From the NCBI GenBank assembly GCA_025267735.1, contig CM046299.1, positions 36,718,887-36,782,886 on the forward strand: a stretch of DNA of 64,000 nt, given 5' to 3'. This DNA is from Mactra quadrangularis. Its lineage: Eukaryota; Mollusca; Bivalvia; Venerida; Mactridae. Of the stretch, positions 8,177 to 60,454 are shown in pieces. The position numbers and the translations under genes are program-made. Numbering within the stretch: the first letter of the stretch is position 1; every line of letters begins with the position of its first letter. Below the pieces are notes generated by a model. That model was not told the DNA's origin. It searched no databases and worked only from the letters and a program-made list of their open reading frames with translations.

Positions 8177-8310
8177 GCATCTGCACTCTACAATTAAACA
8201 AAAATCGGTTGGCATCAAGACAATATAAATTGACAAACATCATTTAGTATCTGGACTCAACAAATAGACAAAATCAGTTGGTATCTGGACTCTTCAAATC
8301 TTCCATAATT
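8177..8310. repeat. Minisatellite continuation with right LINE target duplication
   Basis: Resumes the 34-35-bp unit (ATCGGTTGGCATCAAGACAA and related) after the LINE. The first 13 bases duplicate 5931-5943. Confidence 0.8.
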
Positions 8311-17290: not shown

Positions 17291-17959
17291 GGCCAAGGTC
17301 ATGCTGCTGTATTTAAATTAGTCATAGATTACCGGTAGGGGGCTTCAGTATTGCCTGTAATACTAACTGACCCTTGTTATAACTATATTTGCATGTTGCA
17401 TCACCTAGTGACTTCTATAAATAATGCGTCCATCATGTACATTCAGTAAAATCTGGCTATGTGTGTTTTGGTTTTTCAGCTCATTTGAATGATATATCAA
17501 GTACCTAAATATTGTAAGATTTGATCAAAATTCATATTTCACCTGAAGTATTATAGACTTGTGTTTCAACAAGTTTTATAGGAAAACATGTAACTTGATT
17601 GGTGAAGTTGCCAATTGGGACTGTGAGTGGGCATAAACATTTAGTGCACAACTCTTCAAAAATTTCGTAGGGGTTCTCAATATAATTTTCTTAACTGTAC
17701 ATGTATCATAATCATTTATGTAATATGAAAATAGTTAAACATTTCTGTGTACATTTATTGAAATGTTCAGCACATTTTGACCAAATTTTGGCGTAAGTAT
17801 AGTAACAGCATTAGCACATTTCATTGAGTTTACCTGAAACGAGTCAATTTTTCCAAATCATCTTATTTCTTTTTAACTTTTTTGTTACAATTACTGTCCC
17901 TTGTTTATAAATTTCAAGACCACTGTAAATATAGGGTTTCTTTTATCTTTTATACAAGG
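17291..17959. other. No gene recognised
   Basis: AT-rich, probable intron or intergenic DNA upstream of the SWIM exon. Confidence 0.45.
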
Positions 17960-18364
17960 TACATACGCCACAATGTTTTATGCAGAACAACATGCAGGCT
18001 CAATCATCCTGACATCCCAACATTTCTTCAGAATAGGCCGCAACAATTTGTAAAAGAGTGCTTAAAGAGAATTGATGGCGTTCAGAATGATGAGATACAA
18101 GTACAGGATGGATCTTACATCGTAAGGTCCCATCTGGTGAATGTTGATGTTCCAACTTGTGACTGTGAAGATTTCAATAAAACCGGATGGCCTTGTAAGC
18201 ACTTGCTAGGTCTCATTGTGCACAATCACATTGCATGGGAGAACTTGCCTGCTGCATACAAGAAATTACAATGTTTTCTGCTGGGTTCATCAGATGAACA
18301 AACTACTGAATTGTATCTAGCCCTTCTGTACAACACTCCAATCTATGCGAAAGTCAAGGGCTAG
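17960..18364 (+). CDS. SWIM-type zinc-finger exon (partial gene)
   Basis: The last exon of a gene or transposase, ~134 codons to a TAG. A splice acceptor (TTTTATACAAG, 17949-17959) is likely at its start. The SWIM signature CxCx9CxH reads CDCEDFNKTGWPCKH near 18160-18205, followed by LLGLIVHNH. SWIM fingers occur in MULE transposases and in host ZSWIM proteins; the preceding IVRSHLVNVDVPTCDC phrase fits either. The C-terminus, about 50 residues after the finger, has no known domain. No upstream exons were identified. Function beyond nucleic-acid or protein binding is not assigned. Confidence 0.6.
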   Translation, partial: YIRHNVLCRTTCRLNHPDIPTFLQNRPQQFVKECLKRIDGVQNDEIQVQDGSYIVRSHLVNVDVPTCDCEDFNKTGWPCKHLLGLIVHNHIAWENLPAAYKKLQCFLLGSSDEQTTELYLALLYNTPIYAKVKG

Positions 18365-20550: not shown

Positions 20551-20856
20551 TCCGGCTGGAATTTGAACTCCAACAACACAAGTCTTGGAAAATTATCTGC
20601 GCCTTTAACTCTGGATTGGATGGCTATTTCTTTAACATCTTCATCCTCCTTCTTAATCTTCCAATCAAACTCAAATGATCTGATAAAGGTCACTCTTCAA
20701 GACTCTCACCTCTTCACCAGAAGCCTCTATGCCACTCTTGCAGAAGATGCCCATCCTTGACATGTCTATCGATCCATCATCTGTCTCTTGGGTACCTCAT
20801 CATAATCAGCAGGTCATCAAGAAGGATATTTCCATACTTATACCCATGGATGAAAA

Positions 20857-21141
20857 CCCGGGTCGATAGCGCAGTTGGTAGCGCGCCGGGATTTGGATAC
20901 TCGTGCCCGAGGGGGTGCGGGTTCGAATCCCATCCGGGGAGGTTATACCCTTCCATGAAGATTTGACAATAATGTAGATTTTCCTCCATTAATTAGATAA
21001 TATGGAGAAGTTTCCGGCCTTGTGGAAGGGTAGGTGAGTACTGGTTATAGACAATGGTCCAGGAAAGCTAGGTTAGATGCGCTGGACGCCGTAAAATGAC
21101 CTAAATTGTGTTGATACGGCATTAAAACCAACAAATCAATA
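20857..21141 (+). mobile_element. tRNA-derived SINE, intact copy
   Basis: A-box region TAGCGCAGTTGGTAGCGCG, B box GGGTTCGAATCCC, body with GATTTTCCTCC and GGAAGGGTAGGTGAGTACTG, 3' tail TGACCTAAATTGTGTTGATA then CGGCATTAAAACCAACAAA. Flanked by ATGAAAA at 20850-20856 and 21142-21148. It is the reference copy here for the SINEs at 24338, 31560, 43115 and 45207. Confidence 0.88.
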
Positions 21142-23745: not shown

Positions 23746-24337
23746 ACGTGGTATTGTAAACGTCACAAGCATAGTTGTCGCATGCTCAGGCAATTAATTT
23801 ATGCAAGAAGTTTTACTCGGAAAAAACATATGATTGTGAATTTTAGTCTTACGAAATTGTTATTATGAACATATGTTGACATAAGGGTTAACGTAAGTAA
23901 ACACAACTTGGTTCCAATTACACAATTCACTCTATATTGAATTTAAGTAATTAAGAAATAACTTACAGTTGCCTATATTTTGTTGTCTATTCTAACATAG
24001 GCACGTGCGTTTACACTCTTTATTTAATGTGACGTCATCTATGCTTTATTATTCTACAAAATATAGCCTCGTGACGGCTGTTGAAATTTTACTCCCTACG
24101 TTAAATGCGCAAAGCTGAAAATGGCGCCCGAGTTTATTAGGGTTGACTTTTACAATTTGGTTTCTATTCTATAATTAAGATATAAATATTTTTTGTTCGG
24201 AATAAGAAACACCTCTGTGAGAATTGTGTGAATAAATGCTATTTTCGGTCTTTGCACTGGGGTGGATTTCAACTGCATGACGTTTCTGACAGTTAAAAAT
24301 AGTTCTATAAATATATCGTTTTTAAGTATTTATTTTA

Positions 24338-24607
24338 TTGGATTTAACGCCGTATCAACACAATTTAGGTCTTTCACGGCGTCCAGCGCACCTAACCTAG
24401 CTTTCCTGGACCATTGTCTATAACCAGTACTCACCTACCCTTCCACAAGGCCGGAAACTTCTCCATATTATCTAATCAATGGAGGAAAATCGACATTATT
24501 GTCAAATTTTCATGGAAGGGTATAACCTCCCCGGGTGGGATTCGAACCCGCACCCCCTCGGGCACGAGTATCCAAATCCCGGCGCGCTACCGACTGCGCT
24601 ATCGACC
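24338..24607 (-). mobile_element. tRNA-derived SINE inside the foldback
   Basis: Minus copy of the 20857 SINE (tail TTAACGCCGTATCAACACAA, B box GGGATTCGAACCC, A-box complement CTGCGCTATCGACC). Flanked by a 14-bp duplication with one mismatch: AAGTATTTATTTTA at 24324-24337 and AAGTATGTATTTTA at 24608-24621. Confidence 0.88.
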
Positions 24608-31196: not shown

Positions 31197-31559
31197 TAGT
31201 TACATTCGTGTAACTAATTGTTAAACTTCTGACATTGTCAAGTTTAGTGAAAACAAATGTGTTTGAAGTATGCTTGGTTATAATATCTGATATGTGTTAA
31301 AGTATTTCTAATTGTAGCTTAAGACCAGGGTTGCGTTTTACTAACGTACATGAACAATGTAATTTGACAAGAAAGGATATGACATAATTCTTATGTACAT
31401 GTATTATATGATGAGTTATAATTATTCCAAAGTATTACATGTAAAATGTGACATCAGTATGCTCATATACTTGTCGGTCGATCACAAAATATGCATATAT
31501 TTAGTAAAGAAAGGATAACATGGGTATGTAATAAATTTTTACTGACGATATTTTATTTA

Positions 31560-31832
31560 TTGGAGTTAACGCCGTATCAACACAATTTAGGTCATTTCAC
31601 GGCGTCCAGCGCACCTAACTTAGCTTTCCTGGACCATTGTCTATAACCAGTACTCACCTACCCTTCCACAAACCCGAAACTTCTCCATATTATCTAATCA
31701 ATGGAGGAAAATCGACATTATTGTCAAATTTTCATGGAAAGGTATAACCTCCCCGGGTGGGATTCGAACCCGCACCCCCTCGGGCACGAGTATCCAAATC
31801 CCGGCGCTCTACCAACTGCGCTATCGACCCGG
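31560..31832 (-). mobile_element. tRNA-derived SINE
   Basis: Minus copy of the 20857 SINE (AGTTAACGCCGTATCAACAC through GCGCTATCGACCCGG). An imperfect duplication of ~18 bases (TTTTTACTGACGATATTT / TTTTTACTGATGAGATTT) flanks it. Confidence 0.86.
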
Positions 31833-31909
31833 GTTTTTACTGATGAGATTTGAGCTTATGTATTTATTATGAACAATTGTATTACTTGTGCAATGTTAAG
31901 CATATCACC

Positions 31910-39327: not shown

Positions 39328-39335
39328 GTAGTCAA
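39328..39335 (+). repeat. Left 8-bp target duplication of P element
   Basis: GTAGTCAA, identical to 52335-52342. Eight bases is the P-superfamily duplication length. Confidence 0.93.
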
Positions 39336-40036
39336 CACAGGCTATCGGCGTGGGTTAGGTCAATATAGCCCCTCCTTTGGACCCACTCAAGACCCATCTA
39401 CAACCCAAAACCCCTTAAACACATCTTAAATCACATAATTCTTATTCAAAAAAACATATCAAAACACAACAAAACAATTCTCAAAAAAATAACAACACAG
39501 ATACTATATACTAAGAAAAGGTATGTAACTCTCAAGCTGATTTCTATAGAAAAACAGACACGGTTGTAATCTACGCCTCGTAGATCAGTCAATTTTCAGC
39601 CGATTTCAGTCAGCCCGGGCTTAATCAATGCAGGAATAAATATTCTTTTCAATTCCGTAAAGACCTACTGTCTATCTACAACTGCAGCAACAGTGCGAGG
39701 GTCTAAACTGCTCGAAATACGGTCTAGGACACCGTGTGACCGTGGAAATGCATTTTGCAGTCAATGGATTGAATACAGCAAACTATGACAAACATCCGTT
39801 CAGTCACTTAAAACAAGTATTGTTCAATAGAAAATGTAATTATTTAGTACTCACATGCGGTCGTTTCAATGATAAATCGCTATTTTCCGAGCAGTTCGCC
39901 TTTATTCACTTGTTTACTTTCGTTTTAGACGGGCGCTTCCATATTGAATCGCTGACCCGGAAACGGTTAACGGTACTGCTCTTCTCCGATTGGTCAAAAC
40001 TGAAGGTGTGTCGTTCTTAATCGCTGGTTACCCAGC
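39336..40036 (+). repeat. Left terminal inverted repeat, 701 bp
   Basis: Pairs with 51630-52334. Differences seen: a short indel in the CCCCTCC run near base 40, A/C near 39506, two silent changes and one coding change in the 94-codon frame it contains (39736-40020). That frame is open in both repeats; it is not treated as a gene. Confidence 0.93.
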
Positions 40037-40411
40037 GCTCAGCCTTATCGTGTGCTATAAATCGTAAAACCGGTAAACAGTGAATGTAAACACTGGCGCG
40101 TATTTTTGAAGATATTTTTTCAGTCAGCAAACCGCAATAAAATTTCCAATTGAAAGGGAAAATGACAATTTTAACATGGTAATTCATTATTCCAATATAT
40201 TTAGAGCTATCAAGTTCAATAACATATAATTTTATGAATGACACAATGGAACACATTGAATGGTTGTTAAAGTTGTTTACAGTTAGAGCTGTATATATAA
40301 ATATATATAAAATATCCATAAAACAGGCCAAATGCTATTTTTTATTTGTTTTGGTTTAAATTTCAATAGACCCAATTTTCAAAATAGTTCTTGCAGTCTA
40401 GAAATTATTAT
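40037..40411. other. 3' flank of PHD gene inside the element
   Basis: AT-rich, with no motif seen; probably 3' UTR of the PHD gene. Confidence 0.4.
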
Positions 40412-42053
40412 TTATTCACAATCTTTACAAAGGAATTTAGAGCCTTTCTTCTGATATTTTTTCCATTTCATATGGTGTTTTAGACCTGCACAATATCTGT
40501 GCAACCAAGCATCACAACTATCACACTGGATCCATTCAGTTCCCTTGTCATGGGTATCACAAACCTTACAAATCACCTCCGAATCATTTTCTGACTGCTG
40601 TTCTGACACAAATGATATATTAGGCTCAGTCTCAGATAGTGTAGAGGGGCCTGGTTGTGGTTCTGATACTAAATGTTGATGTGAGACTGATTGAACTCCT
40701 GGAGTTGATGGCAGATTTGAGGTAACAACCTCAGATGGGCCTTGTTCTGCATGTAATGTTTGGGGATTTTTGTTTGTTTTTCTTTAGGTAGAAGATACTT
40801 GTTTTTCTAATGACACCTCTTTCTTACGTGATGCAACCCTTATCTCTTTACGGTGAGCCATTTTTTTCTCCACTTTATAACTATCTAATACATCCTTCCT
40901 GAACTGATTCAACATAACCAATAAATAATACTTAATGATTAGTTTGTAAATATTTTCAATTTGAATGACTTGTAAAACCATATCTCTCAGAAGATCAGAT
41001 ACATCTGATTCAGATTCATTTGACTGGTCATCTTTTTCTACTTCAGTACAACATATTTTTACAAATTCTTCATAGAGAGGAACAGCAGATACTATGTCAT
41101 TGAAACACTTGCTGAATAAATCACTCCCCATTTTATTGAAATTTTCACCACTGAATAATGTTAAACATTTATCAGTTAACTTAATAAAAAAGTGAAACAG
41201 ATTGTCAGAAATATTTGTCAGTCCCCTATTCATGTTTTGCCTTCTCGATATATCCAAAAGAGAATCAGGTTCTACTGTGCTAGCTAAAATATTCTGTTCT
41301 TCTTTTTTTAAGGAATTTAGAATTTTTAAAGCAGATTTTGCATCTTCATAAATTTCTATGTCATTTTTTTTACTTGAGTACCTGACGGAAGATTTTTTGG
41401 TCACATACTTATGCCTGACTTTGGCAATGCAGTATCCCCCAACATATCTTACTCTAGCTCTAGATGCGTGTGTTATTGTTCTATGGGAAACTTGGCCACC
41501 AGTTGTTTGAACTTTTTTGGCCTTTTCACTGAGAATGTACTTTCTTAGTTCCATTGAAATATTGAAACAAATATGCTGGTGAGCAACTTCATAAGTAGGT
41601 TCATTTTCAAACAATTTTAAGCAATTCATCTTAAAATCCATACTCAATGAATGCTGATGAACCTTTGTATAAAAATCTCCCAGATCCTTTGAGCTGATCT
41701 GTCCTGTATCATGACTTGGACATTCTTCAAGTAGAGAAAATAGTTTCTTGTACTCAAGTTTTGCAAAATGCTTAAGTTTTGAAAGATCCATTCTAGATAA
41801 AATTGAGTTTGTCTCAAACTGAATTGGGGTAACAACTGTATCACATCTTATTTTCTCAATAATAGTGTTCAGATTGATATCTTCTGGAAGTGTAATGTCT
41901 TCAGTTTCAACATTTTCTAAATCAGCAATTACCTGATTAAATTCATCATCAAGTTCATCGATAGTTGCTTCAGCATCAACCTCAACATTCTGGAGTCTGT
42001 CTATTTCAGTCAATTGACATGTGTCAAACACCCCAGATGTACTTGGCTGTATT
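40412..42053 (-). CDS. Element-borne protein with C-terminal PHD finger
   Basis: A large exon begins at acceptor TTTGTGTTTCAG (5' end at 42053) and reads ~423 codons to a TAA at 40784-40786. Beyond it the same frame stays open for another ~124 codons and ends in a PHD finger: CKVC, CDSC, WLHRYC, CKDC, with the zinc-ligand spacing of the family. The single stop is therefore probably a mutation or a sequencing error, not the true end. The N-terminal part is acidic (DELDDEFNQVIADLENVETE). The centre has RARVRYVGGYCIAKVRHKYV, reminiscent of C-terminal parts of cut-and-paste transposases, then helical sequence. The linker before the finger is Ser/Pro/Gln-rich. First exon(s) not found. PHD fingers bind histone H3 tails, so a targeting role is conceivable (inference). 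Confidence 0.65.
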
Positions 42054-42653
42054 CTGAAACACAAAGAAAACATGGTAATTGGCAATGTCTTATCAGCTTT
42101 TTTGATGCTTTGCTAAAAATTACCATATAAAGGATTTTTTGCGGTTTGGGGTATATAATTTAAAATGATATTGAAAGTATCTTAATTAGATGTTCAAGAA
42201 ATGACGAAAGAGGCATTATGCTTCATTGTAAGACAGTTTGTGATACCCATGACTAAAATTTGTAAGACCCTAAAATTGGGCTTTCTAATAAAAATTTGCA
42301 AAACAACTCAAATTATCATCTTAAACTGTGTTCCTGTGTCATGAAAGAGAAAATTATTGTCATCATAACAACTTTATGAAAAGATACATGTACATGATAT
42401 TCTTGTTATATGATCACTGATTAATTACACATACTGTTGGCTTAGATGTTGAAGATTTCCTATTATCAAACAAAGATGCATGTATATCACAAAGAGTGGG
42501 TGCACATGAGATATGTCTTTTGGTCAAAATTGCACAAAGGAGTAGGTAAACACTCACAAGAGAAAATCATGTAGCTGGACAGATAAGCCATTAATAAATG
42601 CCTAAATTATTCTTTGTGTCTTAATTTTCAAGGTTATACACAAAACCAAGACC

Positions 42654-43016
42654 TACAGTAACCACCAAAAGTTTGGAGACCTTTTTACTTTTAAGGTTAC
42701 TACAAAATCTTTTATCTAAAATTTGATAATGGTTTATTTTGAAATGATTTTTAGTTTTGCATTATGTTTTGGTAATCAGTATCATAACTGAAACAACAAA
42801 ACTATCATAAAAGCCAATTTATGAAAAATAATTACAGTACACATGATTTTTGAAGGCTTCAGGAGGTCAGATGCTGAATGTTATAAATGTGTGGAATTTA
42901 TGAAATAATTCTCCATACATAAATATGTTGAGAACAATGATTTTACAAAAGCTATCATCAACATTCAAGAATTGTTCTAAGTTGCTTTTGTCTCAAAACT
43001 TTTGGTAGGTACTGTA
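42654..43016. mobile_element. Tc1/mariner-like MITE
   Basis: Ends TACAGTAACCACCAAAAGTT and the inverted TACAGTACCTACCAAAAGTT, followed by TTGGAGAC/TTGAGAC. The TACAGT...CCAAAAGTTTGGAGAC form is typical of Tc1/mariner. No coding capacity. Located in an intron or intergenic part of the P element. Confidence 0.75.
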
Positions 43017-43114
43017 TATATTTGAAAGGTCAAAAATAGATATATGATTGAGTTAAGTTTTCGCATCATAGCATTAAAATACTTCAGTAAAGACTTATCA
43101 ATTTATTTTGTTTA

Positions 43115-43392
43115 TTGTAGTTAACGCCGTATCAACACAATTTAGTTCATTTCACGGTATCAAGCGCACATACCCTAGGTTTCCTGGACCATTGTCTATA
43201 ACCAGTACTCACCTACCCTTCCACAAGACCAGAAACTTCTCAATATTATGTTATCAATGGAGGAAAGTCGACAATATTGTCAAATTTTCATGGAAGGGTA
43301 TAACCTCCCCGGGTGGGATTCTAACCCGCACCCCCTTGCGCATGAGATTCCAAATCCAAGGGTGCTGCCAACTGCCCTATCGACCCAGGTTC
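43115..43392 (-). mobile_element. tRNA-derived SINE inside P element
   Basis: Minus copy of the 20857 SINE with several substitutions (TTAACGCCGTATCAACACAA; CTAACCCGCACCCCCTTGCG in place of the intact B-box region). Confidence 0.83.
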
Positions 43393-43449
43393 AAGTATAA
43401 ACAGCTGTTCACATGAAAATGCTTGTCTGAGAAAAATCTAACGAATGTG

Positions 43450-43705
43450 TTTTTCGTTGAGTTCAACACCATAGCAACTCAGATAAGTAGGTTATATAAA
43501 AGCGGTCAGACAACCTTCTCACTTTCATACTTTGGGTAGTGACTGACAACTTCCCAATATATCTAAAATCATTGGTAGGAGACAGAATGGCCATAGAAAT
43601 GGAAATAATGTAATGACCAAGCTCAACAAAAGTATGCCCTGTCCGGAAATCAAATCCATGACCCCTTTGCGTGCTACCAACTAAGCTTACCAGGCTGCTT
43701 TAAAC
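43450..43705 (-). mobile_element. Older, diverged SINE
   Basis: Minus strand: tail TTCAACACCATAGCAACTCA, related to the TTAACGCCGTATCAACAC tail. The head reads TGGTAAGCTTAGTTGGTAGC with eroded B box GGATTTGATTTCC. Confidence 0.55.
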
Positions 43706-43840
43706 ATCAAGCTATAAAATCTGCAACTGTCTTTTAAGAATGTTTGTTATATCATACATTTAATGATCTAGTTTTTAATTAAGTATCAATAATTAAAAGA
43801 TCAAATACTTTCTACTTGAAAAATTACTAATATTTTACAG

Positions 43841-44128
43841 TAGCCTGTTCAATTACACAAAACGTTAATGATACATTTGGAACTCCTCGGCCATTCACTG
43901 CAAATAATCTAATCTTATACACAAATATGCAATCGTTAAGGCAATGAGTGATGTTTCAAAATTTACGGATAAAAAACGAAACATCCCTTATTGCCTAAAC
44001 GATCGTATATTTGTTTACTTCAACATCGGGAGTTTCAAAATAGCGTCTAAATATGTCCCAGATTAATCACAGTGAATGGCCAAGGAGTTCCAAATGTTCT
44101 GTAACGTTTTGTGTAATAGAACGGGCTA
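43841..44128. mobile_element. 288-bp palindromic MITE
   Basis: The left arm TAGCCTGTTCAATTACACAA... and the right arm, inverted TAGCCCGTTCTATTACACAA..., agree over ~60 bases, including TTTGGAACTCCTCGGCCATT. A second inner pair (GCAATCGTTAAGGCAATGAG / complement) makes it almost a full hairpin. CAG on both sides may be a 3-bp duplication. Confidence 0.85.
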
Positions 44129-44289
44129 CAGGTGTCTTCAAACAACAATGAATCCTTTCATTTAACTGTTGACTAAATTGATTTTGCTGTAAGCAATTTA
44201 CATGTATTGGTTATTTTAAGAAAACATGCAAGTCTCTGAAGCTCATTAGATGTGAACCCCACACATATTTCAAGATAAACACAATTTAC

Positions 44290-44760
44290 ATAGGCAGATC
44301 CAGGATTTCCAGTTAACGGGGGTGGAAAAATCAAGTTATAGGGGCTGAAAATGAACAAGCATTCTAGGGCCCACCAAGGGTTCTAGACAAGACCTTGACA
44401 TGGGGTTCAGATTGCTGCCACCCCTAAAGCTCATTTCTAAGGGATTCATGCACGTTTACAGAACCTGTTTCCAGGGTATACAATAAAAAATCTAGATGTA
44501 CATGTACATCATGTAATTTTTACAGCCATAGGGTCATGTTGAAATGTTACAAATACTTAGAGGGTATTGTCCTTGAATTATTATACTATGTCATTGTACT
44601 AGTGTAGATTAAGTCTTGTTAATTATTGAACCTTTAGCATGCCAAATTTTTTGACATTAATATTTATATATCATACCATCAAACCTTTGCTTGGGCAAAT
44701 TTGGGGGGGGGGGGTTTCGCTGGGTCAGCCCCCCCCTTGGATCCATCCTTGAATATATCA
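44290..44760. other. Possible MITE remnant with G and C runs
   Basis: AGGCAGATCCAGGATTTCC on the left and, inverted, AAGGATGGATCCAAGGGGGG on the right are weakly similar. A 13-G run and a C run near 44702-44740 can pair. Confidence 0.3.
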
Positions 44761-45206
44761 TTATTATTTCATTATTGAAGCAAAGACTGGTATTCAGATT
44801 AGAAATTCTGACTCCTTTTCACTAAATTCTTATATATCATTTAACTAAAAGTAAAACATAGTTGCTGATTTTATAGCCTGGCAGCACAATAATGCATGTT
44901 TGCATTTCTATACAAAAATGTCACAAATGTAGATGCACTGTACTAAATTGAGCTTAATTTGGTAAAGGTCAGAGAAAATTATAAAAATAAGTTAATGAAC
45001 ATTTTAGTGATCTATCATTTAAGTATTTAATATCAAATGCCCACAATCGTGACACTTGGGGTTAAATGCTGGAACCACAATTGATGTATTACTGCAAGTG
45101 CATCTAATTAGACTGTTCAGATAAATTAAAGAAGTTAAAGTTAGGCAACACATTCAACTCTACAAATGTATAGTTAGAAAACCATTTGCAAACATTAAGT
45201 TTTGTA

Positions 45207-45482
45207 CCCCGGTCCATAACACAGTTGGTAGCAAGCAGGGATTTAGAATCTCATGTCTGAGGGGGTGCAGGTTCGAATCCCATCGAGGAGGTTATATCCT
45301 TCCAAGAAAATTTGACAATAATGTTGATTTTCCTCCATTGATTAGATAATATCGATAGTTTCCGGCCTTGTTGAAGGGTAGGTGAGTAATGGTTATAGAC
45401 AATGGTCCAGGTAAGCTGAGTTAGGTGTGCTGAACGCCGTAAATGTTCTAAATTGTGTTGACACAGCGTTAAATCTAGTTAA
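45207..45482 (+). mobile_element. tRNA-derived SINE just upstream of transposase exon
   Basis: Plus copy: CCCCGGTCCATAACACAGTT, B box GGTTCGAATCCCA, body GATTTTCCTCCATTGATTAG, tail GTGTTGACACAGCGTTAAAT. It lies in the intron or promoter before 45571. Confidence 0.83.
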
Positions 45483-45570
45483 CAACCAAGTAGTTTTATA
45501 TTATCTGCTATATATAGTTGTACAATATTATAGAGATAGTTCACTATACTAGATATTTTTTCATCCATAG

Positions 45571-47938
45571 GTTACTCAATAGAGTTGAAGTAGACCAGAC
45601 ATCAGAAACAGATGTAAACCAACTTCTTGAAATATATAGATTTGAGATGACTGAAGCTGGGATATCACCTTGTGCAGAAATCCGTACTTTTTTTGAGTAC
45701 ATAAAGATTGTATTTCCAAAAGCTATCAGGGAGAGAAGAAAATCTTCGTATGAAACAAAAACTATTTATAGAGGGATCAAAATAAAACTACCTCACTTAC
45801 AAGAGGAATCTAAATTTTCATGTATGACTGAATTAAAACAATTTTTGCATAAAGATTTTGTAATACTTGAAGAAAACTCTAAGTCAATAACATGCTCTAC
45901 TGCTACTGAAGCTATTATAAATGATGTACCTCGTTGTAAAATTGTGAAATGTTTGGAGAATAAGTCATGGCTGCTGATTATAGATAAAAAGGAAATAGAC
46001 TTGAGTAAAGTACATGTTTCAAACACTTATCTCCTCTCAAAAGAGAGCATTGAATTAGTATGTGAGACTGTTTTAAACCTCAAACTGTGTACTGGTCTAA
46101 AATTAACTAAGTCTGTTATTATAACAAGATTTCACCATGTTGAACACTTGAAGATAGGCAGTAAATCCCAGAGAATTGTAAGATCTATACTATGCGACAG
46201 AGTTGTAACAATGAACAGTATTACTGGAGTTTGCAGAAAGTGCCAAAAAATGACTCTAAAAACACCACAATCCAATAAAGAAAACCAATTCCAAGAGCCT
46301 AAAAATGATCAAGTTGAAAATATGACAACTTCCAAGAAAAAATTGACAATTGAAGACCTTAAAACACTAATCCCTGATGTCACTGATGAAATAGCTGAAC
46401 TTGTATTAAGTCAAGCCGAAAACATAAGCCGTGATCCCCGAGGAAGAAGATGGTCACAGAAAATGATCTCAGTCTGTTTACAGTGGTATTGTAGGAGCCC
46501 ATTGGCATATGAATCTTTCAGGGCCACAAAAATGTTAATAATGCCATGTCCATCTACTCTTGTTCTATATAAAAATACCATTAAACATGAAACAGGGTTT
46601 GATGATAAAATTTTTAACTGGATGCACTCTGAAGCTGTGCGAAAAGAAATTCATCCAGACGGTTGGATAGGTGGAACAATCATTGATGAGATGGCGATTC
46701 AGTCTGATCTTCAGATATCAAAGAATGGAGATGTGGTAGAGATTTGTGGTCTGTCGGATTTAGGCGAAGAGGCAAACTCATCTGCTGTACTGCGAACAGG
46801 AAAAAATGAGAGAATTTTAGGAACATATGCTCTGCAGTTTGTCTTTCTAGGACTAACTGGCTTTCGTTTTCCTTTCGCTCACTTCATAACAACTGGAATT
46901 CAAGGGACTGAACTGTACCAGCTGTTTTGGCAAGCTGTTGATAGATTGCAAATGTTTGGATTCAAAACAGTATACACTAGTACTGATGGAGCGCAAAGTA
47001 ATAGAAACTTTCTCAAGTATAACCTAAGTAACAACAATATTGAAAAACCCTTTCAAACTTCAATACCTTGTAATTTTGGTGAGTTAGTTTTCATCATGGA
47101 TGTTTCACATGTCATCAAAAAGATCAGAAATAATATTTTATCTAGTGGTACTGGGGGTAAGAGCAAGCATCACACTAGATTGTTGACCTTACCCTCAAAA
47201 CATACAATTCAGTGGCAAATGCTAAGTGACTGTTATCACTGGGATAAGCAAAATTGCCTACAACTACACAAAAATTTAACCAATGAACATATACATTTGA
47301 CAACGCAATCCAAAATGAGAAACCATCTCGCAGAGGATATACTTAACTCTGAAATGTTAAACACTATGATTCAGTTTCAGGCTTCACTAGGTGAAAAAGG
47401 GAATGAATTGAATGGTGTCGTAGAAATTTTAAAACATACCTCAAAGCTTATAGACATTTTTCGAGATACGAGACCCATCATTCTCATGGATGACCCGAGA
47501 ATAACTGAACTTCATGAAATAAGTACATGGTTCAAGACATGGAAGGAATTCACAGTAACTGATAAATTATCTAAGAAAGGCAAAGAGCAACACTTTTTAT
47601 CATATCAATGCTACGATGATATTCAATCATGTATTCTAGGATTTATTGGACTCTGTAGAATCATCACAAAATTATCTAAGGAAATTTATGTGACACCTGG
47701 TTTAATTAACTCTGACATAGTGGAAAATCTATTCAACCAGCAGCGATCCACATACCATGGAGCAAATTCAAACCCAAATGCTCTACAATACAAGCGTGCT
47801 CTGAACAGCATTATAGTTGGACAGAACATTGTATCAAGAAAGGCAAACGCTGGAAAAGGAAGAGATGCTGCCATGCCTTTCAACATTTCAATTAAAAATT
47901 ATCCCTCAAAGAGGCAGAGGTTATCAGATAAATTTTGA
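45571..47938 (+). CDS. P-element/THAP9-like transposase
   Basis: An open frame of ~789 codons after acceptor TTTCATCCATAG; the codons upstream of 45571 in the same frame are likely intron. Near residue 220 a short CRKCQKM Cys pair is seen. The catalytic region follows: GWIGGTIIDEMAIQSDL (first acidic position), ALQFVFLGLTGFRFPFAHFI, VYTSTDGAQSNRNFLKYN (second Asp, family form DGAxxNRxFxK), and FIMDVSHVIKKIRNNILSS (family form DxxHxxKxxRNN). The C-terminal part has SDIVENLFNQQRSTYHGANS then NPNALQYKRAL, the P-type E-x-x-F-xx-R...GxNxNPxAxQxRRA motif. The enzyme should cut at the inverted ends and leave 8-bp staggers. No THAP zinc finger is visible in this exon; it may lie on an unseen upstream exon or be absent. 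No stop or frameshift, unlike the neighbours. Confidence 0.85.
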
Positions 47939-48298
47939 ATTGTGAAATCTATGATTAATATGTCTTCAAAAATTCACATAGAGTGTCTTTCAAAAATATT
48001 ATACAAATCAGTAGTCAAAAGAGAACAGTTAAAAATCTGAATACATCAATAACTAGTAACTAAAATTACATTATAAGGGGAGGTAATATATTTAAAATCT
48101 ACAGTTACAATGGAATGATATTGACATTATTGTGATATATGCTAGTACCTGATATAAATGTTATTTATATGGTATGTTTCCTTAATCTTATTGTCTATAG
48201 CCAGTGAGTTTTTACCATAAAGTTTGATTATTATATTCAAGCCTTTTTCTTTTACCTAATTTAATATTCAGTACAATACCTGTATCCTGAGTTAATAT
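47939..48298. other. 3' flank of transposase
   Basis: AT-rich, convergent intergenic space between transposase and helicase. Confidence 0.45.
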
Positions 48299-48664
48299 AT
48301 AGTACCCACTGAAAGTTTGAAGAGAAGTTCTGTTTGAAGGCCAGCTGAATAGCTGTTATCTAAAATTTTATTATTGTTTATTTGAAAAGCTCTTAGCTTT
48401 TGCTTTAGTTTTTAATTATCATTATGATTTTAACTAAAACTACAAAAATAGCACCTAGGGTATGGAGAATACTAAAATAAACATGAAGTTTGGTGATTTA
48501 GGATGTCATATGCTAAACCTTATAAATGTTTTGCATTCATAAATTTTATAAGCAAGCATATTTAGATAATTATATATCAAAAATAATTATTCTACAAAAA
48601 TAATAATCAAAGTTCAAGAGTTGTAAAGTTATCTTTTTGTCTCCAAACTTTGGATGGATACTAT
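48299..48664. mobile_element. Tc1/mariner-like MITE
   Basis: Ends ATAGTACCCACTGAAAGTTT and, inverted, ATAGTATCCATCCAAAGTTT, then TTGGAGAC. Related to but more diverged than the copy at 42654. Confidence 0.65.
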
Positions 48665-48816
48665 ATAAAGAAACCTTGGGAGAAAGTTTTCAGTATTAAT
48701 AGTGATTTCAGTATTTTGAATATAAATTACAACATGCAATTAATTGGAAATTTGTCTATTTCAGTATTTTGAATGTAGATTATCAGTACTTTCTAAACTT
48801 TCAACTTCCACCCATG

Positions 48817-51572
48817 TTAGATACTAGTATGTAAAGTAGTAGTAATCATGCTAGAGTGCTTGTCATACCTGACATGAGCGTTACAACAGCTTCTGTCCTT
48901 TTCCATATCCATACTATCTTTGGGATTCACAAATCTAAGAACCTTTTCTGGTTGTTGGATACATGCTTTACTTGTGAAGTTAACTACCCTCAGACCCTCC
49001 ATTGTACATGTTCTTCCAATGGCTACACCAAGTTGGCCAGGTTTGAATATGTCACGACAGTCAATTTCAACTCTATAAACAACAAAATACCAAAAATATT
49101 TTAAAAAAGAAGAAATTGCAGGGGGGTCTGAACCTCAAACTATGAGCACATTATACTTAATTTGCTGAGGAAATACAACATACTGTTAATTGAATCTGCA
49201 TAACCACTAAATCTAAGATAAGCACCAAGAAAAATAGCTTTATGCTACTTAAAATCACTAACAGGCAAGAAATACACTCATGGAGAGGTACATTTTCAAA
49301 ATTCTAGGGGTCCGGACCTCCCCTTCTGGTTTCGCCATAGATCATGTTTCGATAGTTAACACTCATTTCAAGTAGATCAGCCCATGGTATAACTTCTAAC
49401 TGAAACTGTGTTGATGACAACTATTCATGGATTTATCAGCAAGATAGTTTAAAATTTAAAGTGAATAAAAAGAATATTGAACTTTCAATAAAATTCATGC
49501 TGGCTAGGTTTTAATTTGTTTAATATGCATGTTTTTCACTATGTAAATATTGTAAATAACTTGTAGATGTTTTATAAGAGGTCCACATCAAAGATTGGAT
49601 TTATCCAAATGCTTAGCCTCATTAAATAAAGTCTTTATTATTATTGTTATTATTATTATTATTATTATTATAGTAGTGTCATAATAAAATGCATCAAATT
49701 AAATAACTAAGAAGTATATATTAACAGCTTTGAAACCTCTATATTACTTTAATGCTCAATTCAAAACCAATCTTGAAAACTGAGAATTGATCATAAAAAT
49801 GTGCTTTAATTACCTTTCAAGTGTCATACCCTGGCTTTTATGTATTGTCAGCGCAAAGGCTGGTTTCAATGGATATTGTTCCCTGACAGCAACAACTGCG
49901 TTTCTTCTTGGATCGAATACTGAAATGAAAATAATTCTGAGCTTTAAGCCAGCTAGTAAGGATTGGTTCTGCCTAGGCGTCTGTGCTGTATGATTATAAA
50001 TGGTTTACACAGGGTCCTGTTCAGTCAATAATTTTCATGAATCAACCCCACAATTAAGATGGAAAAAGTCCCTGTTAATTACTTAGCAGGCTGAAGGTTA
50101 TATATACAATAAGCGCTGTTGCTTCTGCAATAAACATGAGTAATTAAAATAGTTAAGCATGTATATTAACAAAACATAAGCATTACTACAAAATCAATAA
50201 AGATTGCCTTCAATGACATGAGGTGATTGGGGTCACTGACTTTACAACTGATTGATTAAGTTTAATGGAGATGCATTAGTGGTTGTTATGTGCACAGGTA
50301 ACAGGTCTTGTGCTGGTTCTTTCAGAAATTAACATTAAAAATCTACCCAAAAGATGCGTAAAACAATGTTACAACAACATTCCACATTGTTTACTGGGTT
50401 AAGAAGGAGCTATGTTTTTTTGTTTAAATTCTTTTAATAAAGACAATTTGTACTTAAGTCAGAAACATGAGTAAAAATATTTTAAAGACACACAACTAAG
50501 TTATCTTGTAACAGAGGTCACTTTTTGGTAGCTTAATTTATCTTGGAAATCAATAAATAAGTACAAGCCTTACAAAATGTATGAGTTATATGTAATGTAC
50601 TTACCTTCAAATCTGACTTTTTCTATGTAAGTGGCATCCTTCATATTAATAAACTTGACCAGGACTTTTCCACCATTGTCTTGTATATCTATGACTGTTC
50701 CATCAGTCCATTTACCAATTCATTAGATAAATTTTTGACAAGAATAACTGGAATACCAATCTTAAGCCACAGATTCCGAGGTGCGATCAGCTCTTTTAAG
50801 TACTTTTTGTCGCCTGAGTCTATTGAAATACTTTCATGTAGATGGCCAGGAAAATTTAGTATTCTATCATGGTTGAAGTCATCCACTAAATCATTGGTTG
50901 AAAAGAGTTTAATGCTTTCCTCTTGTAAAGGTCTTTTAAGTTCATATAATAATTTGATAGTTTTGTCAGACACCACTCCTATAGAAACTTCCCGGATTGC
51001 TTCAATCATGTCCATGTCAGTCTGTCTCACAACCTCTGTGAGAACTGTAACATGAGGAAAAGCTTGGTTGAAAATTTTGCTTTCAAAACAAAAAGATCCA
51101 TCTTCATTATAACGTGCACATGGCACTGGAGCCAACTGGAGAAAGTCTCCTACTAAAATAACTTGTATTCCACCAAAGAACAATGTCTCATTTTTCAAAG
51201 AGCAAACCTCATGTAAAGATTCAAAAAATCTCTTGCTCATCATTGAAATCTCATCAACAATTAATACATCAGTGTTGATAATTCTATTCACAACATCAGC
51301 AAATTTAGTATTATTTGAAATAATGTGTTTTATTTCAGAAGGTCCATACCTTCCATCCCCAATACCAGACCATCTGTGAATGGTCATTGGATTCAGATCC
51401 GACCGATACAAATTACAAGCTATCCCTGAGACAGTTTTTTACGCTGTTTGCACAGTTTTGCAATGTTGTCGACTAGAAAGGATTTACCTGTGCCTGCTGA
51501 TCCTATAATTAATAGATTGTGCCCCTGGGCCACAAAATCTAAGGCTTTACTCTGTTTTGCGTTCAGCGACAT
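48817..51572 (-). CDS. PIF1-type superfamily 1 helicase, three recognised exons
   Basis: Exon 1 (51572-50605) starts at ATG with MSLNAKQSKALDF. It has motif I GSAGTGKS, then TIHRW, motif II VLIVDEISMM, motif III VILVGDFLQLAPV and the EVVRQ motif. Exon 2 (49919-49814) holds KPAFALTIHKSQGMTLE. Exon 3 (49072-48869 or to the stop at 48817) holds VEIDCRDIFKPGQLGVAIGR then TCTMEGLRVVNF. Splice sites are canonical and the phases join correctly (G|TA for Val; AG|A for Arg). Two one-base losses break exon 1: in an A run near 51437, and near 50705. All core helicase motifs are otherwise present. The start lies 58 bases inside the right inverted repeat, so the repeat probably carries its promoter. PIF1 enzymes unwind DNA 5' to 3'; here it may help replication or repair during transposition (inference). 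Confidence 0.85.
49638..49673. repeat. (ATT)n microsatellite in helicase intron
   Basis: About 12 ATT/TTA units within the second intron. Confidence 0.95.
49815..50604 (-). other. Helicase intron 1
   Basis: Bounded by donor AAG|GTAAGTA and acceptor TTTTCATTTCAG on the minus strand. No other content seen. Confidence 0.7.
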
Positions 51573-51629
51573 GTTTACATAAAAAGTACGCGAAAATGAT
51601 TCCAGCTTCACTGTGACATACTTCGAAAG

Positions 51630-52334
51630 GCTGGGTAACCAGCGATTAAGAACGACACACCTCCAGTTTTGACCAATCGGAGAAGAGCAGTACCGTTAAC
51701 CGTTTCCGGGTCAGCGATTCAATATGGAAGCGCCCGTCTAAAACGAAAGTGAACAAGTGAATGAAGGCAAACTGCTCGGAAAATAGCGATTTATCATTGA
51801 AACGACCGCATGTGAGTACTAAATAATTACATTTTCTATTGAACAATACTTGTTTTAAGTGACTGAACGGATGTTTGTCATAGTTTGCTGTATTCAATCC
51901 ATTGACTGCAAAATGCATTTCCACGGTCACACGGTGTCCTAGACCGTATTTCGAGCAGTTTAGACCCTCGCACTGTTGCTGCAGTTGTAGATAGACAGTA
52001 GGTCTTTACGGAATTGAAAAGAATATTTATTCCTGCATTGATTAAGCCCGGGCTGACTGAAATCGGCTGAAAATTGACTGATCTACGAGGCGTAGATTAC
52101 AACCGTGTCTGTTTTTCTATAGAAATCAGCTTGAGAGTTACATACCTTTTCTTAGTATATAGTATCGGTGTTGTTATTTTTTTGAGAATTGTTTTGTTGT
52201 GTTTTGATATGTTTTTTTGAATAAGAATTATGTGATTTAAGATGTGTTTAAGGGGTTTTGGGTTGTAGATGGGTCTTGAGTGGGTCAAAAGGGGGGAGGG
52301 GCTATATTGACCTAACCCACGCCGATAGCCTGTG
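51630..52334 (-). repeat. Right terminal inverted repeat, 705 bp
   Basis: Complement of 39336-40036, ending CCGATAGCCTGTG at 52334. Includes the second copy of the 94-codon open frame (51646-51930). Confidence 0.93.
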
Positions 52335-52342
52335 GTAGTCAA
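52335..52342 (+). repeat. Right 8-bp target duplication of P element
   Basis: GTAGTCAA, identical to 39328-39335. Confidence 0.93.
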
Positions 52343-53539: not shown

Positions 53540-54100
53540 TTATAAATTGCGTAACATGTTTAAAGTGTGCAATTTATAACTGAAATATGATTTATTTTGG
53601 CGGCCATTTTGAATTTTCTGCCATATTAGTTTGTTAAATTTAGTTTTGGAGTTAATATTTGCACTCAGCACCATAAATACATTTAGATTGATATATTGCA
53701 GGCATGATTCCACATATTCAATGCCCAGTAAATATAATACCCAAATATGTCCAAAATTTGGGTCATTTTGGCAGCCATTTTGAATTTTCTGCCATATTAA
53801 GTTGTTTAATTTAGATTTTGACTTCATATTTGAACTCGGCAGCCTAACAAACCTACATAATGGTATATTGAAAGCCTATAAGAATTGATTTATAACAGTT
53901 GGATATAAAAAAATGTTATTTTTGTGTAAAATGGGCGTGTCCGACATTCAAGGGGTATGTACAGGGGGGTTAATGGGGTCACACAAAATTTTTTGTTGTT
54001 GATTCTATTATCATATTGATGGCACCATACTTTAAGCAGGGTCTCACATGGTTATCTTTAAAAAATGACATTAACAACCCCCCCCTATTAATGGATGTGA
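53540..54100 (-). repeat. Right inverted arm: tandem repeats and Merlin 3' flank
   Basis: Two units with GGCAGCCATTTTGAATTTTC and TTTGACTTCATATTTGAACT, then GGGCGTGTCC, GGTATGTACAGGGGGGTTAA and TTAACAACCCCCCCC. All match the left arm at 38045-38960 inverted. Confidence 0.78.
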
Positions 54101-54983
54101 ACTGTCAGTCTGAACATCCAATGCTGATGTAGGCATTTCAACTTTGATACTTGGTAGAGAACTTGATGATGGAGGTTGACTTGTATCAGTGCTGACAGTT
54201 GCTGATTTATCAGCTGATGAAACAGTTTGTGATTGCGAAACTCTTTCATCTTCAACAGTGGGGACATTTTCCCAATCATCAAAGTTTGATATAGGTTCAT
54301 CATGATCATTACTCAAGGTATCAAATAAAGGCTTAGGATATGTGTATTGACGTTTCTGTGTCAATGGGTAAATCTCACGGACCATGTTGAAGAAAGGGGT
54401 GTACAAATTGTGCTTGAATCTGGACCTCCACATGATTTCAGCTAAATGACTTTTAAACTGAGTTAGACTTGTGCCTGACATTTTATTGAAGTGATGTTTG
54501 GCATGACGCCATGCACCCTCTATTCTGTTGGTGTGAACAGTTTGAATATTATCAGTTCTTTCTTCTTTATAATGCGAAACAAAGGTGTACATGTGTATCA
54601 CTGAAAAGCGCTTATAACCTAGACATTAAAGTTCAGAATAAACACTCCAGTCGTCCGTGTAAATGGTGGAACCTCGCTCAACATGCCTCTGAATTATTGG
54701 TATCAAGGTGGCAGAGGTCCAGTCCCGTACTGGATAAGCTATCAGTGTATTGGTTCGCCTTTCTATAATTCTATGACCTATACTTTTACTCCTTTCCTTG
54801 GGACACCTCTATGGTACTTAAAATGTCTGCCAAACAATTTCAACCTCTGCAGAAAACACTTGATCTCTTATGTGTCTATGAAAGTATTCTTGGAATATTT
54901 CTCTTACTAAACAACCCAAGTCTACACCTGTACTCTTGTAAGAAATACCACTCAATCTGCTGCATGTCATCAGGCTATGAACA

Positions 54984-55107: not shown

Positions 55108-58100
55108 TATATCTTATTATAAACATTTATTTCTTTCAAAAAGTTAAGTATAGCATATGATGGTACAGATTCAAAAAGATCTTTAAGTGAGTTTACTTTA
55201 AAATGTTTGTCACGAATGTATTAAAGATCCTGACAGTCAAGGAGAACGTGTTTTACATTGAAATGCTCGTCACATGGTATGCATTTAGGTGCTTCTTCTC
55301 TTTTGAGAAGGTATGAATGTGTTAATCTAGTATGACCAATTCTACATCGCGAAATTACTATTTGATCTCTGCGATTAGAATATATAATTGACGAAGATTA
55401 ATTAAGGGTTGGCTTTATGTCATGTAATTTATTAAAAATTGCATTGTTCCACAACGTTTGCCATTTTGATTTAATTAACGTGTTTATTGAACATTTGAAG
55501 TCACTACTTGGCAATTTAATATCCACTGGTTGAAGGTTTAAAGATTCTTTGGACAGAATATCAACTTTTTCATTTCCTTGTATACCAATATGGCTTGGTA
55601 TCCAGCAGAGGTGTACTGTTTTAGATTTAAAAAATTCATGCAGTTTCAATTCGATACTTTTAATAAGAATATTGTCTGAATTACGATTTTTTATGGCCAA
55701 TAATACAGATAGAGAATCTGAAAAAAATGATAAAATTACTATTAATACTATTTGATATGTATGATAATGCAAGATCTATTGCTTTGACTTCAGCTGTAAA
55801 TATGGATGCCTGGTCAGGCAATCGCATTCTTGCAACAAAAGAATTTCCATATGCAGCGCAACCAACTTTGTTTCCATCTTTAGAGCCGTCAGTAAATAAA
55901 TGTGTACAATCTTTGTATTTTTCTAAGATGTTAACGAATTCCGATTTAAAGGCCTCTGGGCTGGTAATAGATTTACGTAAGTTTGACAAATCAATGTTAA
56001 CGTTTGGTATGTTGTAGGTCCAAGGAGGGACATTTTCATCAAAGTTCTGTAGAACTGTAGAGGTGTTAATATTAAGCATTTCTAAGTCGTTTTTAACGCG
56101 CAGGCCAAATGGTTTAATTTCGTTTGGTTTGTTGTCAAATTAATCAATGTAATTTGGTTGAAAAACAACTTTTCGCGCCGGGTTACTATTGTTAGAAGAT
56201 ATTCGAGTTGCGTATTGTAATGAAAGCTTTTGTCGACGTAATTTTAATGATGGCTCGTTAGCTTCAACATAAAGACTTTCAACAGGTGAAGTTTTAAATG
56301 CACCAAGGGCGACACGTAAGCCCTGGTTATGTATTGTATCAAGCATTTGCAAGTACGATTTACGTGCTGATCCATACACAATTGACCCATAATCTAGTTT
56401 TGAACGAACAAGACTTCTGTATAATTTAAGTAATGTTTGGGAATCAGATCCCCAATCAGTATGTGAAAGTACTTTAAGTAGATTTAAAGCTTTGATACAT
56501 TTTGTTTTTAGAGACTTCAAGTGTGGTATAAAAGAGAGTTTTCTATCGAATGTAACGCCTAAAAATTTAGCTTCATTTACAACAGGGATTTTTGAGCCAG
56601 AAATGTAAAGTTCAGGATCATTATGATGCTTTCTTAATCGACAAAAATGTTTACATTGTGTTTTTGACTTGGAAAATTTAAAACCATTTTCTGTTGCCCA
56701 CTTTTTGGATTTTATTCAAGTTTTGTTGTAGTTGGCGTTCGATACTTCGAATATTTTTAGAACGATAACAGATTAAAAAGTCATCTACATATAATGAGCA
56801 ATCTGTACCAGGATTTATAACCTTAACAATATTATTAATTTTAAGACCAAAAAGGGTAACTGATAATATACTGCCTTGTGGCACGCCTTGTTCTTGTTTG
56901 TGGCTATCTGATAATGTTGATCCTAATTTAACTTGAAAACTTCTGTCAGACAGAAAACTAGAAATTAACATTGGTAGTCTACCGTTTAGACCGGCATCTT
57001 TTAGAATACCATATTTCTAAGTTGTATCGTAAGCTTTCTCAAGATCAAAGAAAATTGAAACTACATGTTGTTTATTGACAAAAGCCTCTCTTATGAATGT
57101 TTCGAGGCGTACTAAATGATCATTTGTACTTCGCTGTTTTCGAAAACCAGATTGGAAATTAGTTATTATACCGTTAGATTCTAAATACCAGATAAGTCTT
57201 TTATTAACCATGCGTTCAAAGGTTTTAAAAATACAACTAGTAAGAGATATTGGTCGGTAGTGAAGGGGGTCAGTATTGTCTTTACCCGGTTTCGGTATTG
57301 GTATTATTAAAGCTTCCTTCCAGGAATCTGGAATTTTACCAGATATCCATATATCATTAAAATATCGAGCAATAAATGTTGAGATACCAATGGGAGGTGT
57401 TTTAAAAATTGATAATAAATTTCATCAGGGCCAGCAGCTGTATCTTTGGCATGCTTAATAGAATCGGTTAAATCGTCAATTGTAAAGAGGGTGTTATACT
57501 CTTCTTCGTTGTTAGAATGAAAATTAATATTTTATTTTTCCGAGTTAGATTTGACCTTTTTAAATTCTTCAGTGTAGTGTGCTGAAGAAGAATTATGTTC
57601 AAAAGTTTCTGCCAGCGTGTTGGCTATATCTTTTGTAGTTTTTGCTACGCTCGAATCTTTACGTTTCAGATGAGCAGTAGGAACTTTTTTGTGTTTACCA
57701 TTAATTTTACGAACTGCTTCCCAAACTTTTTTAATTGGAGTGTTGGCGTTAATTTTAGAAACATATGACTGCCATGATTTACGTTTAGAAAACTTAAATG
57801 TTCTATGAGCTTGTGCTCGTAGGATTCTATAATTGTCTAGATTTGCAGCTGTAGGGCAAACCTGAAATTTTTTAAGTGCTGCTTTTCGTTTCCGATATGA
57901 ACTTCTGCACTCATCGTTGAACCATGGTTTTTTAATTTTAATTGAGTTTTTCATTGAAGTTTTAGGAATACACTCATCAGCTATCTTTGATAGAGTGGAC
58001 GCAAAGAGATTAGCTTTATCCGAAGAGTTGGAAAAATTCGGGCTTGTTAAATCATCAGAACACAATTTGTTAAATTATTCCCAGTTCGCTTTTGAGAATT

Positions 58101-58785
58101 TGTAATAAGAGCGGTTGTTTACTGGAACAGAGTCGTTTAAAGTTAACAACAATGGAAAGTGGTCACTGCCATATTGTTCGTCAAGCACTGACCAAGTAAA
58201 ATCCAAGTATATTGATGGATGTGATAATGTGAGGTCTATACAAGAAAAACTTCCAGTGGCTGGATGTAAGTAAGTTGGTGACTTGTTATTTAAAAGGCAT
58301 AGTTGAACATTATCAATGAACTTTTCTGTAATGCTGCCTTTATTATTCGTAGATGTACTTCCCCATATTGGATTATGCGCATTAAAATCGCCGAGTAAAA
58401 AGAATGGTTCTGGGAGTTGTTTAGTTAAATTTTCTAAGTCTTCAACAGTTATAGATAAATTGGGAGGGAGATATAATGAGCATATTGTTATAGGTCTGTG
58501 CAAAGTTACTTCAACGGCTACGGCTTGCAGATTAGTTCGTATCTGAATTTGTCGTTGAGGGATACAGTTTGCAACCGCAATTGTTGAGCCACCAGATGCT
58601 CTTATTGTGTCTGTGCACATTTTATTATAAAGCGTATAGTCCTTTATTGATGTTTTATCATTTGAAGATAGGAAAGTTTCTTGAAGACATACAACTTTCG
58701 GGGAGTATTTCGATAATAAAAGAAGTAGATCGTTGTAATTTGATTTAAGACCACGACAATTCCATTGAAGTATAGTTTGACTCAT
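55108..58785 (-). pseudogene. LINE ORF2: endonuclease, reverse transcriptase, RNase H
   Basis: Starts MSQTILQWNCRGLKSN. The apurinic-type endonuclease has VCLQETFL (catalytic Glu), LLGDFNAHNPIWG, SCIDLTLSH and GSDHFPLLL (catalytic Asp-His). RT has KPGKDNTDPLHYRPISL, FFDLEKAYDTT, QGVPQGSILSVTLF and YVDD. RNase H has LFTDGSKDG, FTAEVKAIDLAL and the SDSL region. The Cys/His tail follows. Lesions: TAA after KANWE (58075), TAA near 57532, a shift near 57360, TAG in place of Trp after AYDTT (57019), a shift near 56705, TAA after NYID (56140), a shift near 55720, and a stop near 55400. No activity expected. The start is ~20 bases after the ORF1 stop. Confidence 0.9.
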
Positions 58786-58804
58786 GGTTCAACGAAAAGT
58801 AAAA

Positions 58805-60454
58805 ACTTACTTCGGAAACTTAACAGGACTTCGGGCCGAAGTCCGGGGAGGAGAGCTGTGGACACCCATGTCCTCGTCCTCCATCGACTCGATGTCACTC
58901 ATAAGAGCATCGAATCGGTTGGAGGACGGGACAGGGTCCCTCTCCGCTTTTCTAACTCGGTCGGTTAGGCTATGCCATACCGGAATTTTGTTAAGCGTCC
59001 GCGTGCGCGCAGGTTTTACAGTCCTCAATCCAAAAAACAAACACAATTGTTGGTGAAATTTTCTTAAATAATTCTGTTGTTACGGTATTCGATAACTGAT
59101 TTTCCTCAGGAAATACTGATAATTCATTGTTTCTGTGAATTTGACGAATGAAAAGTACAAGTGTATGTTGTTTATACTTTTTTATAGAATTACTTTAATC
59201 TCACATTAATGTCATAATCATTCATGTAAAAGTACTAAAGTACTTTTTTGTGTGAATACTAGCTAGAATAAACATGTGTTTTCGTCTTCGGTTTGTATGT
59301 TTTTATGAATAGGTACCTAGGTTTGTCAAATTTGAGTTGACGCTTAACAAAATTCCAATTTGGCATGGCCTTAGGACGACCTTCTTTTTGGGTGATTGCC
59401 TTTGAATCACCCGCTCAGGAGACTGAGAAGCCTGTGAGACCCGCCTCTGAGGTACAGATGAGGTACTTGTTGATGTTGTCTGTGAACTTGTACTTGCTAT
59501 GGACGTATTACGTGAAAGAATAGGAGACGGTTTTTGCACTGGAGTGATTTCAAGAGGAGAATACTTGCATAAATTGACCTGCACAGCAGAATCAACCATC
59601 TTAACTGGTTTTGATACAGCTGCTGAATAAGAATTATTCTTGGAACTTTCTACAAGCTTGCGTGCATCAGGAAAAGACAAACTTTGTGTATATTTAACAC
59701 GGAGAACTTCTTTTTCTGTCTTCCAGACTAAGCAAGAACGGGAGGTTGCAAAATGATTACCCTCACAGTTTGAACATTTGACTTCATTAGAACAGTTTTC
59801 AAGCGGACCAGCATGAGAAGTACTACATTTACGGCATGTATTCTTTCTAGTGCATTTAGTTTCATGATGTCCATATTTAAGGCATTTGTAACACTGCATC
59901 GGGTTTGGTATGTACATCTCAACGCGAACGTTGAGATACCCAACTCGAAGAGTGGATGGAAGAATGGGGGTATCAAATGTTAAAATGTATGTGTGAGTGG
60001 GAACACGTTTACCGTCTCTTGTGGATAGAATACGTTTGGCATTTGAAACACATTGAGAGCTTAGCTCTTTTACTATGTCTGCCTCTGACATTTCTGCAAG
60101 GTCAGGGCAGCGAATGACTCCTTTGGATGAATTGAGGGTATTGTGTGCAGTGCAAAAAGATTTAATGTTAAAAAAGATCTTAATTTAAGCAAATTATCTG
60201 ATTGTTGTTTTCTTTGGACCTCGATCAGGAGTTCTCCACCACGGAGCTTCCTGACCAATTTTGGAGTCCCTATGAGTGCAGAAATTGACTTTTTAATGAC
60301 AAACGGGTTCAACTGTGCTAATTTTTCATCTCCCAACGCTTCTACTACCAGAAAGCGTGGAAAAGATGATTGAATTGATTGTTCATTTGAAATGTTGGGT
60401 GATTCGTCAGACTTACGTTTTTTAAAAAGAGGTTAAAGGATCCATGGTTGAGAT
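58805..60454 (-). pseudogene. LINE ORF1: nucleic-acid chaperone with three zinc knuckles
   Basis: Begins at ATG 60454 (MDPLTSF, then a one-base shift into KKRKSDESPNIS). The N-terminal half reads LGDEKLAQLNPFVIKKSISA and RGGELLIEVQRKQQSDNLLK. After a shift near 60170 it continues KGVIRCPDLAEMSEADIVKE. Zinc knuckles follow: CYKCLKYGHHETKC, CRKCSTSHAGPLENC and CSNCEGNHFATSRSC. The Ser/Thr-rich part is cut by an inverted-repeat insert (about 58975-59365). The C-terminus resumes as NRFDALMSDIESMEDEDMGV and stops near 58805. The role in the family is binding the LINE RNA. Confidence 0.85.
58975..59365. mobile_element. ~375-bp inverted-repeat insert (MITE) in LINE ORF1
   Basis: GGAATTTTGTTAAGCGTC at 58982-58999 and its exact complement at 59339-59356. 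Weaker pairing extends outward through GGCTATGCC / GGCATGGCC. The interior is AT-rich and non-coding. It breaks ORF1 between the Ser-rich region and the C-terminus. Confidence 0.7.

Follow-up and report, generated by a model that had tools for sequence, protein, structure and literature searches.

A P-superfamily transposon of the bivalve Mactra quadrangularis that probably carries a PIF1-helicase and PHD-finger gene opposite its transposase

Described members of the P superfamily of transposons typically carry a THAP domain at the N-terminus of the transposase. The canonical P element is about 3 kb long, and P elements rely on host gap repair for gains in copy number. We know of no helicase in Galileo, a Drosophila member of this superfamily. 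The P transposase is described as using guanosine triphosphate (GTP), cutting DNA and leaving 8-bp duplications (PMC7776569). Galileo is described as having unusually long inverted repeats, and its transposase as having a THAP domain (PMC3688188). Here we analyse a 13-kb P-superfamily element whose ends lie exactly at positions 39336 and 52334 of a 64-kb stretch of Mactra quadrangularis DNA (assembly GCA_025267735.1, contig CM046299.1, positions 36,718,887 to 36,782,886 of the forward strand), the whole of which is called the window. This element probably has two genes, in which a DDE transposase with an RFX-type winged helix resides inside an intron of an opposite-strand gene for a protein with a PIF1 helicase, a helical domain and a PHD finger (PIF1-PHD). 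The original prediction had placed three genes between the inverted repeats; all do lie inside the element, but they are best read as two, one antisense within an intron of the other. No helicase-bearing transposon of the P superfamily is described in the literature searched.

Helitrons also carry a helicase, which is of the PIF1 type, together with an HUH replication protein, but they lack inverted repeats and a target site duplication. Helicase-bearing DDE transposons are already known in other superfamilies. AcademH and KolobokH, as those reports describe them, likewise combine a DDE transposase with a helicase (PMC10045372, PMC9587614), although both fall outside the P superfamily, under which the window element is filed. 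KolobokH further differs in having a RecQ rather than a PIF1 helicase, and AcademH in leaving duplications of 9-10 bp. RAG-like transposons (RAG1L-RAG2L) resemble the window element in pairing a DDE transposase with an opposite-strand partner that ends in a PHD finger; as described, however, this partner is a kelch protein, the genes are convergent rather than nested, and the duplications are nearly always 5 bp (PMC7204232). KolobokH identity is ruled out because the window helicase is of the PIF1 type (PF05970 and PF21530 in a domain scan of the window's open reading frames), RAG-like identity by the P-type transposase, the PIF1-helical-PHD partner and the absence of a kelch match, and Helitron identity by the inverted repeats and the 8-bp duplication. 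No HUH domain was found in the five window open reading frames scanned, and P0030, a relative of the helicase, is closer to a PIF1 in PDB (206 bits) than to Helraiser (57 bits).

The ends, duplication and repeats of the element are exact and are not a product of chance. The 8-bp target site duplication, GTAGTCAA, occupies positions 39328-39335 and 52335-52342, directly outside a left terminal inverted repeat that starts with CACAGGCTATCGG (39336-40036, plus strand) and a right terminal inverted repeat (51630-52334, minus strand). Only six substitutions and a single 4-nt indel separate these repeats, which are 99% alike, and the terminal 24-mer (allowing up to three mismatches) occurs in the window at the two element ends only, against a mean of 0.00 in shuffled sequence. 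The 13-kb unit, its duplication and its repeats of about 700 bp, all claimed beforehand, were thus verified at exact positions. Terminal inverted repeats and an 8-bp duplication, the latter seen here at one insertion only, are shared with Drosophila P and THAP9, although the repeats of Drosophila P are given as 31 bp long (PMC7776569), and unusually long ones are shared with Galileo. The near identity of the two repeats fits a fairly recent insertion, but gene conversion would have the same effect.

The transposase main exon (45571-47938, plus strand; acceptor AG at 45569-45570) is open and encodes a P-transposase-like core (46364-47824, plus strand), a TNP-like RNase H transposase with catalytic residues D, D and E at 46685, 46985 and 47723. 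The structural match spans 6p5a 130-564. At the N-terminus lies an RFX-type winged-helix fold (45569-45799, plus strand), and no C2CH THAP-like pattern was found in any open frame. A P/THAP9-like transposase had been proposed; the P-like core holds, but the N-terminus appears RFX-like and not THAP9-like. The element shares its transposase core fold and D/D/E residues with Drosophila P and THAP9 while differing from both in its apparent winged helix, and it differs from Drosophila P in its length and in its probable second gene. An RFX winged helix in this position would show that a P-type transposase is able to swap its DNA-binding domain.

The helicase and PHD finger are probably encoded by one minus-strand gene of four exons with predicted joins. 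Exon 1 (50605-51572) begins with an ATG at 51572 and contains Walker A, DEIS, GDFxQL and the start of the 2B domain, exon 2 (49814-49919) contains ALTIHKSQGMT, and exon 3 (48869-49072) contains GQLGVAIGR and the helicase end. Exon 4 (40412-42053) encodes a middle domain that is entirely helical (42052-40787), for which fold searches gave no convincing match, and a C4HC3 PHD finger (40415-40582), whose nearest solved relatives are those of PHF20, KDM5B, TAF3, DIDO1, KDM5A, Set3 and MLL. Several of these PHD fingers bind histone H3 methylated at lysine 4 (H3K4). All four exons have GT-AG borders, and exons 2-4 are in phase, with a sole stop before the gene end. The predicted third intron (42054-48868, minus strand, 6815 bp, GT-AG) would enclose the transposase exon on the opposite strand, and its donor and acceptor phases match. 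The ATG lies 57 bases inward of the inner edge of the right inverted repeat, in agreement with a helicase start previously put 58 bases from that repeat.

Proteins from other genomes show the same fusion. Helicase and middle domain occur together in 11 of 169 fetched proteins (P0034, P0043, P0058, P0066, P0071, P0115, P0148, P0160, P0162, P0165 and P0166), from the bivalves Dreissena, Ostrea, Mya, Mercenaria, Argopecten and Saccostrea and from one 3.3-kb metagenome contig; the matches of P0066 (E 4e-5) and P0071 (E 3e-7) are weak. The query pieces were partly taken from P0162 and P0165, and the window's own middle-PHD query likewise retrieved P0148, P0160, P0162, P0165 and P0166. By eye, P0148 and P0160 join the helicase end to the middle domain at the place predicted for the window, and P0032 runs into the first intron at identical residues. 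The PHD domain of the original prediction is therefore present, but it is best read as part of the helicase gene and not as a gene of its own.

Relatives of the two genes also share contigs elsewhere. Matches were paired by equal contig size in bp, using 28 transposases, 22 PHD-part proteins and 44 of the 120 listed helicases. Among the matches listed, transposase and PHD-part relatives coincide in three cases (9026, 6360 and 1746463 bp), transposase and helicase relatives in one (5192 bp), and PHD-part and helicase relatives in two (9021 bp and one Mercenaria chromosome), where a crude estimate of chance gives 0.03-0.04 per comparison; the 1.7-Mb and Mercenaria cases denote the same contig only and not closeness. 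At the four loci that have both, transposase and middle-domain identities correlate (Pearson 0.976; Spearman 0.71, p 0.11) and give the same four-taxon grouping, with the observed value reached by 2 of 24 permutations, which suggests agreement in divergence over few loci. The shared contigs, along with the position of both parts inside the element ends, support the earlier assignment of helicase and PHD finger to the P-superfamily element.

The named relatives of this lineage are mostly bivalve. In a midpoint-rooted tree of 90 helicases, the bivalve-named sequences and Priapulus form one group of 48 (support 100/100), outside which fall the PIF1 proteins of fungi, a millipede and a cyanobacterial bin. 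The window helicase pairs with one from Ruditapes (100/96). In Mercenaria, Ruditapes, Dreissena and Mya, the helicases of one genus belong to several distant lineages, as would be expected for mobile elements. Elements of this kind could explain part of the bivalve 'PIF1-like' gene annotations as transposon genes; in a pearl oyster, the non-syntenic regions are reported to be enriched in domains that include PF05970 (PMC9646362).

The PIF1-PHD copy in the window is damaged. Set beside the relatives P0029 (from Ruditapes) and P0030, exon 1 shows a deletion near 51440 that comes with a frame change, and a further frame change near 50700; the motif Ia region is about five residues shorter than in P0029. 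An in-frame TAA lies at 40786-40784 in exon 4. A change of one base might be a sequencing error, but such error would hardly account for all three lesions. Complete PIF1 domains are predicted in relatives such as P0030 and P0166. The spliced helicase first described is thus recognizable by its PIF1 domains, but its core motifs are not all complete.

Production of both proteins, their binding to DNA and histones and a role for the helicase are what we infer from this anatomy. The winged helix of the transposase would bind the long inverted repeats, and the enzyme, taking GTP as its cofactor like that of Drosophila P, would pair and cut the ends before inserting the element at target cuts staggered by 8 bp. 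The PIF1-PHD protein could act during or after excision, its PHD finger keeping it on H3K4-methylated chromatin, while antisense nesting could let the two transcripts limit each other. In break repair, the helicase might drive displacement-loop (D-loop) extension, such that the sister copy serves as template for filling the donor gap and the element multiplies; we offer this step tentatively. Equally provisional is the broader proposal of a self-amplifying two-gene P lineage with opposed transcripts, in which a helicase steered by methylated H3K4, and not the host, would restore or multiply the donor by break-induced replication. If this is correct, possession of a PIF1 helicase and a chromatin reader makes the copy-gain step testable and parallels the PHD finger of RAG2. 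Methylated H3K4 is described as bound by the PHD fingers of both sea-urchin RAG2L and mouse RAG2 (PMC7204232).

Several observations weigh against the two-gene anatomy and the functions proposed for it. The RFX match of the window transposase falls under the Pfam cut-off (E 0.058), a search for a 5′ exon of the transposase found none, and a single-sequence search with this protein gave no PDB match. The GTP-binding insertion domain PF21788 appears in 5 of 20 rows and was not recognised in the window protein. Nesting of the transposase in the PIF1-PHD intron is a prediction for the window copy and need not be universal: in P0071, the middle domain continues from the helicase with no large intron. 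An in-frame ATG just upstream of the exon-4 acceptor (MFSLCFR/IQPS) is a possible separate start for the PHD part. Among the matches listed, 9 of the 13 transposase relatives on contigs of at least 5 kb have no helicase or PHD-part partner (4 have one), and the 9021-bp contig has no transposase match. Split genes, length limits and matches beyond those listed could explain partnerless relatives, but real absence is also possible. Because its PIF1-PHD gene is broken, the window insertion is no proof that the helicase is needed.

The broken gene beside an open transposase exon, and the partnerless relatives, would suit a helicase-PHD cargo that was captured once and hitch-hikes with no role in movement. 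We consider this unlikely, as the association recurs in several contigs, divergence tracks at four loci, and the helicase domains are recognizable over a deep clade, in which unselected cargo would not persist. Just as doubtful is a helicase that acts not in repair but in excision, where it would unwind repeats that are long or folded, or in evading silencing; as single strands, repeats this long and this alike could fold, and PIF1 enzymes do resolve structured DNA. A division of helicase and PHD part into two genes, with annotation merges creating the fused relatives, is less likely still: gene predictors do merge neighbours, and the ATG before exon 4 would serve such a gene, but the splice phases agree over the 6.8-kb intron and the fusion recurs in six named bivalves and the metagenome contig. 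Least credible is a chance nest, in which the P element and an independent PIF1-PHD element, each with ends of its own, came together when one of them inserted into the other, for although the two genes are interleaved and the intron has received other insertions, the window has no further inverted repeats of at least 30 nt enclosing the helicase or PHD part, and the same association occurs in other contigs.

The large PIF1-PHD intron contains two copies of a repeat resembling a short interspersed nuclear element (SINE), at 43104-43391 (plus strand) and, inverted, at 45211-45475 (minus strand). This repeat, roughly 270-290 bp long and with a tRNA-like box B by eye, occupies three further places in the left flank (20855-21126, 24327-24607 and 31549-31835), and the two inner copies are 85-89% alike to these. 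Also within the intron is a foldback resembling a miniature inverted-repeat transposable element (MITE; 43840-44129), with arms of 28 nt (93% complementary) and 38 nt (89%), and a second foldback-like repeat lies near each intron end (42654-43016 and about 48460-48665), sharing a 27-nt arm at 85%. Outside the element, an open reading frame at 17828-18361 (plus strand) matches PF04434, the SWIM zinc finger (E 1.2e-7), and is perhaps a transposase relic. A 184-residue frame at 54074-54625 (minus strand), which contains TNRIEGAWRHAKHHF, has no Pfam match and by eye resembles the end of an IS1595-type transposase. Two minus-strand copies of a retrotransposon lacking long terminal repeats (non-LTR; 55681-60184 and 5961-8239) are broken into several frames, in which an endonuclease, a reverse transcriptase, an RNase H and a gag-like zinc knuckle can be discerned by eye.
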